Part shown: positions 1 through 14,339 of the stretch, piece after piece
Layout: every line of letters starts with the position of its first letter
Position numbering within the stretch: the stretch's first letter is position 1
NCBI GenBank assembly: GCA_910575265.1
Contig: CAJTEA010000003.1
Coordinates: forward strand, 1-64,000
Reading direction: 5' to 3'
Length of the DNA stretch: 64,000 bases
DNA from: Oscillospiraceae bacterium
Lineage (GTDB): Bacteria; Bacillota; Clostridia; Oscillospirales; Oscillospiraceae
Notes under the pieces: generated by a model
Told to the model about the DNA's origin: nothing
The model's input: the letters and a program-made list of their open reading frames with translations, nothing else
The model's database searches: none
Made by a program: the position numbers and the translations under genes

Positions 1-385
1 CGCTGTCGGCGATACGGTCGATCTCGGTCTTAAGGGCGTCTACCTCTTTCTGGAGGTTGGCGCGGTCCACGTCGTTGTCGTAGGTGCCGTTGGCGGACTG
101 AGTGGCCAGGTAGTCCATGCGGTTGAGCATGTCCTGGATCTCCTGCATGGCGCCCTCAGCGGTCTTCACCAGGGAGATACCGTCCTTCACGTTCTTCTGA
201 GCGGCTTCCAGACCGGTGATCTGGGCGCGCATCTTCTCAGAAATAGCCAGACCGGCGGCGTCGTCACCGGCGCGGTTGATCTTGTAGCCGGAGGAGAGCT
301 TCTCCAGGTTGCCCGCCAGCTTGCTGGTGTTGGTGTTGTAGTTGCGGTAGGCATTCATAGCCATGATGTTGTGCTGAATACGCAT
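1..385 (-). CDS. hag: Flagellin, N-terminal part (cut by window start)
   Basis: The reverse strand from the ATG at 385 encodes MRIQHNIMAMNAYR and then a region ending in NLEKLSSGYKINRAGDDAAG. This is the signature N-terminal D0/D1 coiled-coil segment of flagellin, the secreted filament subunit. About 128 codons are visible and the rest lies outside the window. The start is supported by GAGAGGAG seven bases upstream. The gene lies directly downstream of a csrA homologue, the usual fliW-csrA-hag neighbourhood in Firmicutes. An RNA-guided-repressor-like tnpB gene lies just beyond csrA, which suggests this may be an accessory flagellin. Without the C-terminal half I cannot say whether the gene is complete. 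Confidence 0.95.
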   Translation of the reverse strand, partial: MRIQHNIMAMNAYRNYNTNTSKLAGNLEKLSSGYKINRAGDDAAGLAISEKMRAQITGLEAAQKNVKDGISLVKTAEGAMQEIQDMLNRMDYLATQSANGTYDNDVDRANLQKEVDALKTEIDRIADS

Positions 386-537: not shown

Positions 538-722
538 TCACGGTTTCACGCAGTCGGGACGCTTGCCTCCGCCGCGCTCCAACACCTCTCCCCGGAGGAC
601 AACAACCTCCCGGGGGCGTTAATATTCAGGTGGGCCCGCTCGTTGCTGATCTGTTCCACCTGAATGACGATGCTGTCGCCCAAGGTGACGTAATCGCCCT
701 TTCGCATGGTGATACAGAGCAT
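538..722 (-). pseudogene. csrA: CsrA translational regulator homologue, frameshifted
   Basis: From the ATG at 722 the sequence reads MLCITMRKGDYVTLGDSIVI and on to a segment ending HLNINAP. This matches the CsrA fold (MLxLTRKxGExxxIGDxI, GINAPKEV). After NINAP the frame breaks in a C/G run near 611-618: five Cs are present where six would give NINAPREVVVLRGEVLER and a stop at 538. As written, translation leaves the CsrA frame and stops at 546. CsrA binds GGA motifs in mRNA and is antagonised by FliW; it classically represses flagellin. The start has AAAGGA about eight bases upstream. A one-base homopolymer deletion could be a real mutation or a sequence error, and only re-reading the DNA can tell. 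It lies directly after the predicted guide RNA of the TnpB-like gene. Confidence 0.75.
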
Positions 723-738
723 GGTCTGTATCCTTTTT

Positions 739-960
739 GCATCGTCATAATATTTTGGACAGCCCCCTCAGGAGCTTTCAGGCGCGCGCGCGCGCCCTCT
801 CGTTTCCCACCCTCCGGTCCGGAAAACGCTGAGCGAAGCGGAACAGATGTTATTTCACTTCGCTCAACGCCCTCCAGCTGGATTATGGGCATCCACCGCT
901 GTCCCGGGCGGCAATATCGCAAAACGCTAAGCGCTTTTGCCAAATTGAACAAGGCCCTGA
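739..960 (-). ncRNA. Predicted omegaRNA-like guide RNA at the 3' end of the TnpB-like gene
   Basis: TnpB proteins use an RNA made from the 3' end of their own gene and the sequence beyond it; the last ~16-20 bases are the guide. Downstream of the stop at 927 the reverse strand shows GGGACAGCGGTGGATGCCC and ATAATCCAGC, then a 12-bp stem (arms 858-869 and 827-838). A GC-alternating hairpin (781-796) and a short terminal hairpin AGCTCC/GGGGCT (776-761) follow, then GTCCAA. This order resembles IS605-family right ends. The bases after GTCCAA, AATATTATGACGATGC (754-739), are the predicted guide, ending just before the csrA ribosome site. The boundaries are inferred from the pattern, not measured. 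Confidence 0.6.
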
Positions 961-2084
961 GCTTTGATATTTTTCGCCGCGTTGGCCTCCCGGTTGTGGG
1001 TAATCCCACACTTAGGGCAGGTCCAGGTCTTCACCTTGTAGTCCACGCTGTCCTGCGCCAGTCCGCATGCGGAACAGGTCCGGGCAGTGGGAGCGTAGCG
1101 ATCCAGAATGATCAGGGGCTTGCTCTGCCGCTCCAGCTTGTACCGCAGCATCTCCCGGAACATCCGGTAACCGGAACTGGCCGCGTCTTTCCGCGACGGC
1201 CCTTTCGACATCTCCGCCAGAGCGTCGTCCCTCATACACACGGCATTCCAGTCGTTGGCTATCCGGCTGGACTCCTTGTGGAGAAAGTCCCGGCGCTGAT
1301 TGGCGATGTGCTCGTGGAGCAGACGGTATTTTTGAACGGCTTCCTCATAGTTTTTGGATCCCGGTTCCATCCGGCTGAGCTTCTGCTGGATACGGACCAG
1401 CTTCTCCCGAGACCGCCTCAGCCACCGGGGCGGGTCGGCCATTTCGCCGTTGTCCGCCACATAGAAGTGGCCCATGGAGTATTTCAGGCCGATGGTGGTC
1501 TCGGCGTTGGGGGCCACCGGCTCAGGCCGCCTCACCGGGCACTCGTAGAGGATGGAGCAGTAGTATTTTCCTGTGCGGGTCTTACTGACGGTGATCCGTT
1601 TCAGTTTCCACCAGGCCTGGGCCCGGCGGGGGAACTTGGCTTTGACAACCCCCGCCTTGGTCATACGAATGCCGTCCCGGGTGGTATAGATGGTGGGACC
1701 GGACTCAAATACATGGTTGCAGGCGGTAAAGGAGTCCCGGTCGTCCTTCTTACGTTTGAACTTGGGATGCCGGAAGTTCTCCGGGTCTTTGAAAAACAGC
1801 CGGAACGCCTGGGAAAGCTTGTTCTGCTCCTGGATCAGGGCCTGATTGTCCACCTCTTTTAAAAATGGGGCGCTATTCTTGTACTTAGCCGGGGTGGGGA
1901 TGAAGTGGGCTCCCGTCTCAGCGTAGAACCGCCGCTGGTCGGAGAGCATCTGGTTCCATATGTACCGGCAGCAGCCGAACGTCTTTTCAAACAGCTCCGC
2001 CTGGTCCTGAGTAGGATAGAGCCGGACCTTGAGGGTGGTGTATTGAATGACCTGCCCGTCCGCGGCCTTTGCTCGACCAGCCAT
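927..2084 (-). CDS. TnpB-like protein with all three RuvC catalytic residues replaced (TldR-like)
   Basis: This 385-aa protein has the IS605-family TnpB architecture: an N-terminal wedge/REC region (KVRLYPTQDQAELFEKTFGC), a RuvC domain interrupted by a long helical stretch, and a C-terminal zinc ribbon (CSAC...CPKC). The active site is gone. RuvC-I reads GLKYSM instead of GLDYSM (K codon AAA). RuvC-II reads VCMRD instead of VCxED (R codon AGG). RuvC-III reads HNREANAA instead of HDRDxNAA. Several base changes per site make sequencing error unlikely. Length is normal and the frame is open throughout, although neighbouring genes are full of frameshifts, so the protein is probably selected to work without cutting DNA. 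Such proteins (TldRs) act as RNA-guided repressors, in known cases beside flagellin or transporter genes. Here csrA and flagellin follow on the same strand. The start at 2084 has GGAGG upstream. A dead transposon relic is the alternative. Confidence 0.85.
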   Translation of the reverse strand: MAGRAKAADGQVIQYTTLKVRLYPTQDQAELFEKTFGCCRYIWNQMLSDQRRFYAETGAHFIPTPAKYKNSAPFLKEVDNQALIQEQNKLSQAFRLFFKDPENFRHPKFKRKKDDRDSFTACNHVFESGPTIYTTRDGIRMTKAGVVKAKFPRRAQAWWKLKRITVSKTRTGKYYCSILYECPVRRPEPVAPNAETTIGLKYSMGHFYVADNGEMADPPRWLRRSREKLVRIQQKLSRMEPGSKNYEEAVQKYRLLHEHIANQRRDFLHKESSRIANDWNAVCMRDDALAEMSKGPSRKDAASSGYRMFREMLRYKLERQSKPLIILDRYAPTARTCSACGLAQDSVDYKVKTWTCPKCGITHNREANAAKNIKAQGLVQFGKSA

Positions 2085-2140: not shown

Positions 2141-2239
2141 CGGCCGGCGGTTTGTTCCAAAAACTTGTTTAAAATTTTTATCATCTGGGGCTAAAGTATC
2201 AAGAAAGTCTGCCGATATGTAATATTGAAACAGTGATAT

Positions 2240-2419: not shown

Positions 2420-3040
2420 ATGTCAGGTATGATGTACGGCTATGCCCGCGTATCCACACGCGGCCAAAAAGAGGACCGCCAGGTGGCGGCCCTGCGGGAG
2501 TTCGGCGTGGCTCCGGAACACATCACCGTGGAAAAGCAGTCGGGGAAAAATTTTGACCGGCCCCTGTATCAGCGGCTGGTGCAGGCATTTCAGCCGGGGG
2601 ACATACTGGTAGTCAAGAGTATCGACCGGTTGGGGCGCAATTACGACGAGATCCTGGAGCAGTGGGCCCGCATCACCAAGACGAGAAGGGCCGCCATCGT
2701 CGTGCTGGACATGCCCCTGCTGGACACTCGGGAGGGCCGGGACCTGACGGGCACGCTGGTGGCGGATATCGTTCTCCAGCTGCTGAGCTATGTGGCCCAG
2801 ACAGAGCGTGAGTTTATCCACCAGCGTCAGGCGGAGGGTATCGCGGCGGCGCTGGAGCGGGGGGTCCGCTTCGGCCCGGAGCGCATCCCCATGCCGGAGG
2901 GCTTCGAGGAGTTGGCGGAGGACTGGCGGAACGGGCATGTCACTGCCACAGAGGCGGGCAGGCAGCTGGGAATCTCCCGCAAAACCTTTACCCGCCGGGC
3001 GGTCGAGTGGAGGGCCGGTCAATATAAAAAATCCCCCTGA
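2420..3040 (+). CDS. Serine recombinase (resolvase/invertase family)
   Basis: This 206-aa small serine recombinase makes and rejoins staggered cuts at paired crossover sites for resolution or inversion. The N-terminal catalytic domain has YGYARVSTRGQKEDRQ with the nucleophilic Ser in ARVS. IDRLGRNYDEI carries the conserved active-site Args, and the long E helix contains REFIHQRQAEGI. The C-terminal helix-turn-helix is VTATEAGRQLGISRKTFTRR. Length is typical of Tn3/Hin-type enzymes, and it lacks the MerR-like N-terminus of IS607 TnpA. GAGAGGAGGG lies at the right distance before the ATG. Two loop-less palindromes upstream are candidate substrates. It may be the remaining module of the element that carried the TnpB-like gene, but linkage is inferred from position only. 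Confidence 0.93.
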   Translation: MSGMMYGYARVSTRGQKEDRQVAALREFGVAPEHITVEKQSGKNFDRPLYQRLVQAFQPGDILVVKSIDRLGRNYDEILEQWARITKTRRAAIVVLDMPLLDTREGRDLTGTLVADIVLQLLSYVAQTEREFIHQRQAEGIAAALERGVRFGPERIPMPEGFEELAEDWRNGHVTATEAGRQLGISRKTFTRRAVEWRAGQYKKSP

Positions 3041-12361: not shown

Positions 12362-12832
12362 TCAAAGCTCCCCATAAAAATTCTCCGATTCCCCAATTAA
12401 ATTTCTCAAGAGATTTCGATAAAAGTACTCTACTTTATCTCCGCAACCCTTAACATCCCTTTTTATCTCACTCTCACGTATTCGTAATACGGACCACCCC
12501 ATCTCCGCGAGGCGCTTATTGACCTGCTTGTCTCGACAAATATTTCTCTGAATTTTTTCCGCCCACGGTTTGGAGTATCGTTTCAACTCTTCCTCCAAAG
12601 AGCCATAGCCTCGTAATGTCCAATTGTATCCATGCCAAAAATCTCCGTCACAAAAAACAGCCAGCCGCACACGGGAAAAAACGATGTCTGGCGTCCCCGG
12701 TAATGTCCTTACATTAGCCCTGTAGCGTAACCCTCGCCGCCACAGTTCTTTGCGCAGCGCTAATTCCGGTCTGGTATTTCGGGATTTAATAGCGGACATG
12801 ATCTTGTGTGTCATCTCACGTGACCGTCCCAT
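12362..12832 (-). CDS. vsr: Very short patch repair endonuclease Vsr
   Basis: This 156-aa Vsr nicks DNA at T:G mismatches arising from deamination of 5-methylcytosine made by a partner methyltransferase. Visible motifs are MSAIKSRNTRPELALRKELW, RYRANVRTLPGTPDIVF with the catalytic Asp, AVFCDGDFWHGYNW and WSVLRIRESEIKRD. Length is normal. It is divergent from the C5 methyltransferase at 12,909 with 76 bp between, the usual arrangement. Lower GC than the flanking chromosome suggests it came in with the R-M genes. Confidence 0.93.
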   Translation of the reverse strand: MGRSREMTHKIMSAIKSRNTRPELALRKELWRRGLRYRANVRTLPGTPDIVFSRVRLAVFCDGDFWHGYNWTLRGYGSLEEELKRYSKPWAEKIQRNICRDKQVNKRLAEMGWSVLRIRESEIKRDVKGCGDKVEYFYRNLLRNLIGESENFYGEL

Positions 12833-12908: not shown

Positions 12909-14339
12909 ATGAATTATATCACCACGACATACGCCGCGGAAAAATGGGGCATCTCCCCTCGCCGAATCCAGACGCTATGCTCTGAGAGAAGAATCCCTGG
13001 AGCGCGAAAATTCGGAGGGGCTTGGCAAATCCCAGACAGCGCCGCTCGTCCCATGCGCCTGCCAGGCGGAAAAAAAACAAATCGAAACGCGCGACCACTG
13101 AACGTCCTATCCCTGTTCTCAGGCTGCGGTGGTATGGATTTGGGGTTCGAAGGCGGGTTTCAGGTACTTACCCAATCTGTTAACTCTCATATCAATCCCA
13201 CTTGGCACGCGCGCAGAATAGATTCCCAATGGACTTATTTGCCTAAAACACGCTTTCACACAATATTCGCCAACGATATTCGCCCCGCCGCCCGCCGGGT
13301 TTGGACAAATTACTTTTCCCGATATGGCATTCAACCCGCTGACTACCACGAGCAAAGCATCGTAGACTTGGTCAAGCTTCAAAAGAGTAATCGTCATGTG
13401 ATCTTTCCCGCTCAAGTTGATGTTGTGACAGGTGGTTTTCCCTGTCAGGACTTCTCTATCGCCGGCAAACGGCAAGGCTTTGAATCTGATAAGAGTCACG
13501 AAGGCACCGCCCGGGACTCTGACACACCATCCATCGAAAGCCGCGGTCAACTCTATATGTGGATGAGAGAGGTGATCGGCATTACAAAACCAAAATTGTT
13601 CATCGCCGAGAATGTTAAAGGACTTACAAATCTTAACGATGTTAAAGAAGTAATTGAACGGGATTTCGCCTCGGTGTGCAATGGAGGTTACTTGGTTGTC
13701 CCCGCCCGCGTTTTACTCGCCGCTGACTATGGTGTGCCGCAGAGCCGGGAGCGGGTGATTTTTTATGGCTTCAAGAAATCCGCCCTGCGGCCAAAGGCGC
13801 TCGCGGCGCTGTCTCAGGCGGTTATTAACCCCCTTTATGATCCATACCCCATCCCTACACACAGCTCTCAGGGCGACGCGAAACAGCGGCTACTGCCGTT
13901 CGTCACCCTTCAGACAGCGCTCGGTGGCCTTCCAGAACCTGCCGACGCGTCAGATTTGGATCAAAAAAAGTATTCACAAGCTAAGTATATGGGCCGACAC
14001 TGTCAAGGTCAAACTGAAATCAACCTTGACAGCATTGGCCCCACGATTCGATCAGAGCATCACGGCAATATTGAGTACCGGCGCCTCAGCGCTGACCACG
14101 GTGGAAAGTATGCTGAGGAATTAGCGGCCGGCAAGCCAGAGCGTCGGCTCACCATCCGCGAATGCGCCAGAATTCAAACATTTCCTGATAACTATCAGTT
14201 TGTCCTCCCGGCGCGAAAAGGGGAACATAGCGTCAGCGCCTCCGACGCCTACAAACTTATCGGTAACGCGGTCCCCCCCCTGCTGGCATATCATATCGCG
14301 CGAAGGTTAGAGGAGAATTGGACACTATATTTTAAATGA
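12909..14339 (+). CDS. DNA (cytosine-5) methyltransferase with N-terminal HTH
   Basis: This 476-aa enzyme transfers a methyl group from AdoMet to C5 of cytosine in a specific DNA site, protecting it from the partner nuclease. C5-MTase motifs appear in order: I (VLSLFSGCGGMDLGFEGG), IV (GGFPCQDFSIAGKRQGF with the catalytic Cys), VI (LFIAENVKGL), VIII (QSRERVIFYGF), IX (RRLTIRECARIQTFPDNY) and X (AYKLIGNAVPPLLAYHIA). Residues 1-50 form an excisionase/MerR-like DNA-binding fold (TTTYAAEKWGISPRRIQTLC, GAWQIPDSA). That may give autoregulation, replacing a separate controller protein; this part is inference. GGAGGGATACCG precedes the ATG. The restriction gene converges from the other side, 11 bp away. 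Confidence 0.95.
   Translation: MNYITTTYAAEKWGISPRRIQTLCSERRIPGARKFGGAWQIPDSAARPMRLPGGKKTNRNARPLNVLSLFSGCGGMDLGFEGGFQVLTQSVNSHINPTWHARRIDSQWTYLPKTRFHTIFANDIRPAARRVWTNYFSRYGIQPADYHEQSIVDLVKLQKSNRHVIFPAQVDVVTGGFPCQDFSIAGKRQGFESDKSHEGTARDSDTPSIESRGQLYMWMREVIGITKPKLFIAENVKGLTNLNDVKEVIERDFASVCNGGYLVVPARVLLAADYGVPQSRERVIFYGFKKSALRPKALAALSQAVINPLYDPYPIPTHSSQGDAKQRLLPFVTLQTALGGLPEPADASDLDQKKYSQAKYMGRHCQGQTEINLDSIGPTIRSEHHGNIEYRRLSADHGGKYAEELAAGKPERRLTIRECARIQTFPDNYQFVLPARKGEHSVSASDAYKLIGNAVPPLLAYHIARRLEENWTLYFK

Follow-up and report, generated by a model that had tools for sequence, protein, structure and literature searches.

The tldR gene and its neighbours

The window, a stretch of 64,000 nucleotides (G000:C3:1-64000, G000 being the genome that it comes from), carries near its start hin, an inverton, tldR, a guide RNA (gRNA), csrA and a flagellin gene. 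The main text of a recent study (PMC13418256, Nat Microbiol 2026) describes csrA-associated TldR loci from Oscillibacter and Flavonifractor plautii with this same layout, in which a TldR with a dead RuvC site and its gRNA are found with csrA and fliC and with hin upstream. The window locus belongs to this published system and is not a new kind. The first-pass annotation had spoken of a possible parallel case to known TldRs, and this wording says too little since the csrA-linked TldRs are a published clade. What differs from the loci in that text is the genome, the frameshift in csrA, and the palindrome sequence and orientation described here.

We assigned tldR (927-2084, reverse strand) from its reading frame, Pfam, alignment, dN/dS and a tree. 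It is a 385-aa open reading frame with zero internal stops, and the product matches the Pfam domains HTH_OrfB_IS605, OrfB_IS605 and TNB, a zinc ribbon. The motifs GLKYSM, CMRD and HNREAN read as the first-pass annotation had stated, as do the length, the open frame and the zinc ribbon. That annotation had also proposed an alignment with active TnpB, and in a HMMER alignment of TldR with ISDra2 TnpB (PDB 8bf8) we found K, R and E in the columns of D191, E278 and D361. The intact RuvC D/E/D of active IS200/IS605 or IS607 TnpB is absent from the window protein. D191 and D361 were counted in the alignment; the residue number of E278, and the catalytic roles of all three residues, were assumed. It had further been claimed that each of the three acids was lost by two or more base changes. 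This is so for the first two, where the codons are AAA and AGG, but the third change, D to E, takes a single base and is conservative. Judged from the alignment, K and R at the first two positions should abolish RuvC catalysis.

We searched 99 genomes, including that of the window, for homologues and obtained matches in 22 at E ≤ 1e-20; a further scan of genome contigs gave 32 tldR loci. In a tree of 48 proteins the 39 without both D and E formed one branch with support of 100/99, and the nine other proteins, which are chosen outgroups, keep both D and E. The catalytic triplet of the dead proteins was KRE in 32, NRE in 2, KRG in 2, KRD in 1 and NKA in 1, and in L205 the third position is unreadable. 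The window TldR groups with L177, near Flintibacter muris. Pairwise dN/dS between the window tldR and 7 relatives was 0.13-0.24, which indicates that the gene is under purifying selection. With the same substitution pattern running across the clade, this speaks against chance and bears out the earlier view that the gene is not a product of random decay.

Among 44 locus entries, several of them cut by contig ends, a flagellin lies near tldR in 37, csrA in 33 and a hin-like gene in 22. csrA is upstream of tldR in 2 of the 33 (L201 and L113), and L179, L180, L200 and L202 have a flagellin but no csrA match. The tldR frame is open for more than 1000 bases in 39 of the 44 entries, one of which, L205, reads through Ns. 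Broken or short copies were found in G044 (the same record as L204), at a second G006 locus and in L207 (in pieces), contig ends cut tldR in L203, L208 and the G047 copy, and tldR fragments occur in relatives, including at G006:C1:1853257 and in G044:C152. G000 itself has a single tldR match, not the multi-copy or unlinked spread of active TnpB. The first-pass annotation had named scattered relatives lacking the linkage, and many frameshifted orthologues, as what would speak against it; we found neither. As a separate observation, L191 and L197 have two csrA-like matches between tldR and flagellin.

Both csrA and a flagellin do lie downstream of tldR in the window, as had been noted. However, the flagellin is cut at the contig start and csrA (546-722, reverse strand; Pfam and comparison) is frameshifted. 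The csrA ORF is 58 aa long and matches positions 1-38 of the 53 in Pfam CsrA, and it matches the CsrA of a relative in two frames, over residues 1-40 and 37-59. The frameshift is given as read in the assembly and could be real or a sequencing error; because of it the csrA part of the earlier claim is weakened in G000. A second CsrA of G000, on contig C5, matches over positions 1-51 of 53.

Palindromes, promoter and hin

The first-pass annotation did not include an invertase, two palindromes, a σ28-type promoter and a guide, all of which we found at this locus. Sequence inspection and a core search placed two 26-bp hix-like palindromes upstream of tldR, one on the tldR side (2110-2135) and one on the hin side (2246-2271), 136 bp apart from start to start. 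Between them lies a σ28-type promoter, TAAAGTAT-N11-GCCGATAT (2192-2218, forward strand), which points toward hin and away from tldR. Scored with what we take to be the σ28 consensus, it reached 13.1, while the best of 600 shuffles reached 12.5. A search of G000 for the palindrome core, with up to 3 mismatches allowed, found these two places only. The hin-like gene (2420-3040, forward strand; ORF, Pfam and comparison) has an open frame for a serine recombinase of 206 aa.

Inversion of the segment was seen between relatives, and the G000 assembly shows one orientation. L179 and L107 share a flank of 615 bp at 99.8% identity, and the inner segment is inverted between them, with 96% identity over 152 bp. 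Similarly, the inner segments of two loci in G008 are identical at 84 of 87 positions when one is inverted, compared with 45 of 108 columns in direct alignment. The main text of PMC13418256 reports hin-linked inversions of about 120 bp that carry a FliA promoter, and the window resembles those loci in this respect.

Where relatives have sites of this type and their promoter can be read, it faces away from tldR in L177, L178, L098 and L107, like that of the window, and toward tldR in L179. Across the 40 entries whose upstream DNA was long enough, a cut-off of 11.3 gave 8 promoters toward tldR, 18 away and 14 unclear, and a stricter cut-off of 11.8 gave 8, 15 and 17. The scoring also allows TTAA, and the 11.3 cut-off came from shuffles under an earlier scoring; recalibration with 600 shuffles under the same scoring showed that 2.7% reach 11.3 and that the 99th percentile is 11.8. 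The promoter site of L112 is 293 bases away and is doubtful. Two counts weigh against the explanation that we favor: 18 of the 26 classified promoters face away from tldR, and no more than half of the entries (22 of 44) have a hin-like gene near tldR. In the window, the orientation in the assembly is apparently OFF for tldR. The sites are present in G006, G040 and G021 with no hin in the examined surroundings of tldR, and hin copies of 86-89% identity are found elsewhere in these genomes.

The alignment of L179:1-742 with L107:501-1242 has a further feature. The 615 bp at 99.8% end at the first palindrome, and the tldR stretch beyond it is 86% identical. This suggests that different tldR cassettes may have been put behind the same hin by recombination at the sites. 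We also observed that L121 (G008:C113) has a palindrome pair, a longer csrA-like ORF (by eye), a flagellin and a nearby hin, with no tldR seen; it looks like a form of the locus without tldR.

The recombinase could also be read as a transposase, in which case tldR would be the decaying TnpB of an IS607-like element that came by chance to lie beside csrA and flagellin. The hin-like protein does have a weak match to IS607 transposase, below the family cut-off, csrA is broken in the window, and gene fragments occur in relatives. However, the gene shows purifying selection, the D and E positions are lost in all 39 members of one clade, G000 has a single copy, the gRNA and the linkage are conserved, and the recombinase sits at a palindrome pair that inverts in relatives. 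As a general account decay is spoken against by dN/dS and linkage, and we regard it as very improbable.

The guide RNA and its match in an unlinked flagellin

Directly downstream of tldR lies a conserved gRNA region of 173 nt (740-912, reverse strand), comprising scaffold and guide, whose 5' end is uncertain and may overlap the end of tldR. Its assignment comes from an alignment (A1), a fold and a model (R1). We cut out 25 gRNA regions, of which 20 were aligned in A1 and 17 in A2. Compensatory change was found at 25 of 46 predicted pairs in A1. The predicted fold of the window RNA from 740-926 has a long central stem and an energy of -87.6 kcal/mol (z -5.19). An extended gRNA stem is a feature of the published csrA-TldR loci too, where, according to the main text of PMC13418256, it is cut by RNase III.

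The R1 model, which covers the 3' part of the gRNA, gave one match in G000, at tldR (740-816); of 22 genomes tested, 14 have a match. In the eight negative genomes, the tldR of G039 is divergent, G044 and G047 have pieces only, and no dead tldR was found by the homologue search in G004, G005, G010, G011 and G016. With E values as high as 1 admitted, Rfam returned three matches for five loci, and the gathering score was reached by a tRNA alone. The 3' part of a gRNA was also seen in L115 (G049:C100:30423-30490), just upstream of a guide-matched unlinked flagellin, with no tldR found in the available DNA.

The scaffold ends in GTCC, which is followed by two variable bases and then by the guide, AATATTATGACGATG (740-754, reverse strand). 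The start of the guide was inferred from the alignment, and the putative seed, AATATT, runs from 754 down to 749. A seed of 6 nt was measured for a related Enterobacter TldR (PMC13418256, main text), and we assumed by analogy that it holds for the window TldR too. We found that the guide sequence AATATTATG is that of codons 6-8 of an unlinked flagellin in G000. This flagellin, on contig C52, reads AATATTATGGCTATG, and the match lies outside the window at G000:C52:8962-8976. Guide and flagellin agree over 9 contiguous nt and at 13 of 15 positions overall, with mismatches at positions 10 and 12. By eye, a σ28-type promoter is present at this flagellin gene.

Besides the guide itself, five places in G000 match the 15-mer guide with 2 mismatches, and a reversed-pattern control gave 0. 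Among the five, the first nine bases are kept by the flagellin alone. A 9-nt match by itself is not unique in 3.6 Mb, and chance nine-base matches must exist elsewhere. We considered one non-flagellin target, GAYAARAAYATYATGACSATGA, which recurs in many of 18 genomes searched and in G000 lies within an antiporter-like membrane protein (label by eye). It was rejected because it mismatches the guide at position 6 in G000. The dead RuvC site, the conserved gRNA, the guide complementary to an unlinked flagellin and the linkage to csrA and flagellin uphold the first-pass reading of the protein as TldR-like.

The linked flagellin and a proposed flagellar phase variation

The linked flagellin (2-385, reverse strand; ORF and Pfam) is represented by its N-terminal 128 aa and reads AACATCATGG. 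Its codons 6-7, AACATC (365-370, reverse strand; sequence comparison), have two mismatches with the guide, one at position 3 and one at position 6, both of them synonymous. The linked and unlinked flagellins of G000 show 4 differences in 381 compared bases, and 2 of these fall in the seed codons (p 0.0008). For the flagellin pair G008/L121 it was 2 of 6 differences (p 0.002), and for the other 12 cis/trans pairs the p value for seed-codon enrichment ranged from 0.016 to 0.44. In G000 the assembly breaks off within similar 5' regions of flagellin genes (the start of C3 and the ends of C52 and C63), so the 3' parts of the two flagellins cannot be assigned.

We tabulated guide and linked flagellin for 35 of the 44 locus entries. 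The remaining entries (L198, L203, L204, the first part of L205, L207, L208, the second locus of L109, L113 and L114; nine in all) were left out because the guide was unreadable by pattern or there was no linked flagellin start in the available DNA. Of the 35 readable loci, 34 show a mismatch between the linked flagellin and its own guide somewhere in positions 1-6; position 6 is affected in 33 loci and position 3 in 25. The conservation of guide positions 1-6 in this table proves nothing, because the search pattern fixes or restricts them. Read by eye, the guides of L113 and L114 both mismatch the linked flagellin, and their spacing after the scaffold differs. The sole exception is L180, which has no csrA match and whose guide matches its own linked flagellin at positions 1-9. 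In L179, L200 and L202, which like L180 lack a csrA match, the linked flagellin still mismatches the guide. We noted that in L180:5001-6900 tldR and gRNA lie directly before the guide-matched flagellin.

A pattern search of the genus, which finds only the exact starting peptide, covered 64 genomes and gave 50 flagellins, spread over 30 of them. Where a genome has both kinds of flagellin, as 11 do, at least one unlinked flagellin carries AATATT. Two guides count against the explanation that we favor: in G049 the guide is AACATT, one mismatch from the unlinked AATATT flagellin, and in G053 it is AATATC and not AATATT. No unlinked flagellin was found by the peptide pattern in G053, G009 and G060. 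The cis/trans table leaves out five ambiguous flagellins from G044, G047 and G100; in G100, tldR, csrA and a gRNA with guide AATATT lie beside an AATATA flagellin, and an AATATT flagellin is on another contig.

The layout of L180 raises the possibility that the guide autoregulates the linked flagellin and that the unlinked match is incidental. The guide match in L180, a locus lacking csrA, would fit this, as would the 3' gRNA part of G049 that has no tldR and directly precedes a matching flagellin. However, this reading is opposed by the mismatch in 34 of 35 loci and by the unlinked AATATT flagellin in all 11 genomes with both kinds, even though the guide at the tldR locus of G049 is AACATT. 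We give autoregulation hardly any weight.

A second alternative keeps the same TldR mechanism and attributes the synonymous difference between cis and trans genes to codon drift, or to a high AT content where the main gene starts, close to its start codon, instead of selected self-sparing. AATATT was present in 0 of 15 linked flagellins, 13 of 15 unlinked flagellins in tldR genomes and 7 of 15 flagellins from genomes without detected tldR, a group that includes incomplete genomes and G016, whose TnpB relatives show at most 46% identity. About half of this last group thus differs from AATATT too, and AAC and ATC are commoner elsewhere in both groups, as drift would have it. On the other side, linked flagellins differ from those without detected tldR (Fisher 0.006) and from unlinked ones (1.8e-6), although the sequences are non-independent and these statistics ignore phylogeny. 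The concentration of differences in the seed codons of G000 and of G008/L121 also argues against drift, and so does ATA, found in 4 of 15 linked seeds and in 0 of 81 other Ile codons (12 linked genes tabulated).

Between cis and trans genes, seed codons were changed in 26 of 34 cases and other Asn/Ile codons in 38 of 299, in pairs that are non-independent as the G020 trans genes and the G008, G020, G024 and G039 cis genes were reused. With AATATT trans genes only, the counts were 24 of 28 and 30 of 246; this version is circular on the trans side, and the counts given first include two other trans genes as well. Nearby Gln, His and Ala codons showed no significant difference between linked and unlinked flagellins (p 1.0, 0.13 and 0.14), with His CAT commoner in the linked (8 of 15) than in the unlinked (3 of 15). 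We consider drift or AT-richness unlikely as the explanation of the seed difference.

Instead, the linked flagellin is probably immune to its own repressor purely through synonymous seed codons, at the third positions of Asn6 and Ile7, so that a two-letter silent code would decide which flagellin is made; Hin would switch the gene set and, by recombination at the palindromes, may also bring different tldR cassettes behind one promoter. If this rule is true, synonymous sites carry selected regulatory information, and target and self genes could become predictable from sequence alone. That the linked flagellin departs from the guide by synonymous changes is not mentioned in the main text of PMC13418256; the figures of that paper may show it.

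Taken as a whole, the locus very likely drives flagellar phase variation as a TldR locus of the csrA type. Through a nuclease-dead, RNA-guided relative of CRISPR enzymes, the switchable gene set appears to silence one flagellin and to spare the adjoining one in a bacterium related to gut commensals. We propose that the Hin-like recombinase would flip the segment of about 110 bp between the palindromes. With the σ28-type promoter facing tldR, it would transcribe tldR, the gRNA, csrA and the linked flagellin. TldR-gRNA would then bind codons 6-8 of the other flagellin without cutting and block its transcription, and its translation would be blocked by CsrA in genomes where csrA is intact. For the linked flagellin, silent differences at guide positions 3 and 6 would interrupt the match and so spare it, and the cell would swap its filament protein. 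Weighing against this picture are the guide mismatches at positions 10 and 12, the non-unique 9-nt match, the frameshifted csrA and the self-matching guide of L180. The earlier suggestion of a muted resident flagellin and a supplied alternative fits the guide data; what we infer is that TldR binds and represses, that this strain switches, that the promoter acts as described and that the linked gene is spared.

In Salmonella hin-fljBA, Hin inverts a flagellin promoter from which an alternative flagellin is expressed together with a repressor of its counterpart. The repressor there is FljA; here it would be an RNA-guided TldR, with CsrA. The part of Hin in Salmonella phase variation is cited in PMC13418256, whose main text also states that the gRNAs of csrA-linked TldRs target flagellin (fliC) ORFs, where the window guide has its match too, and that CsrA binds the target leader. 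The Enterobacter phage TldR-FliCP of the same text resembles the window in its dead TnpB with gRNA and in flagellin replacement, which for the window is proposed. In contrast to it, the window guide matches the start of the ORF and not the promoter region, and the window has csrA and hin. The locus adds an independent example to a system described only very recently, and it could serve as a sharp and cheap test of how an RNA-guided repressor separates two near-identical genes in one cell.

Elsewhere in the window, translations read by eye place a Vsr-like endonuclease (12362-12832, reverse strand) beside a C5 DNA methyltransferase (12909-14339, forward strand).
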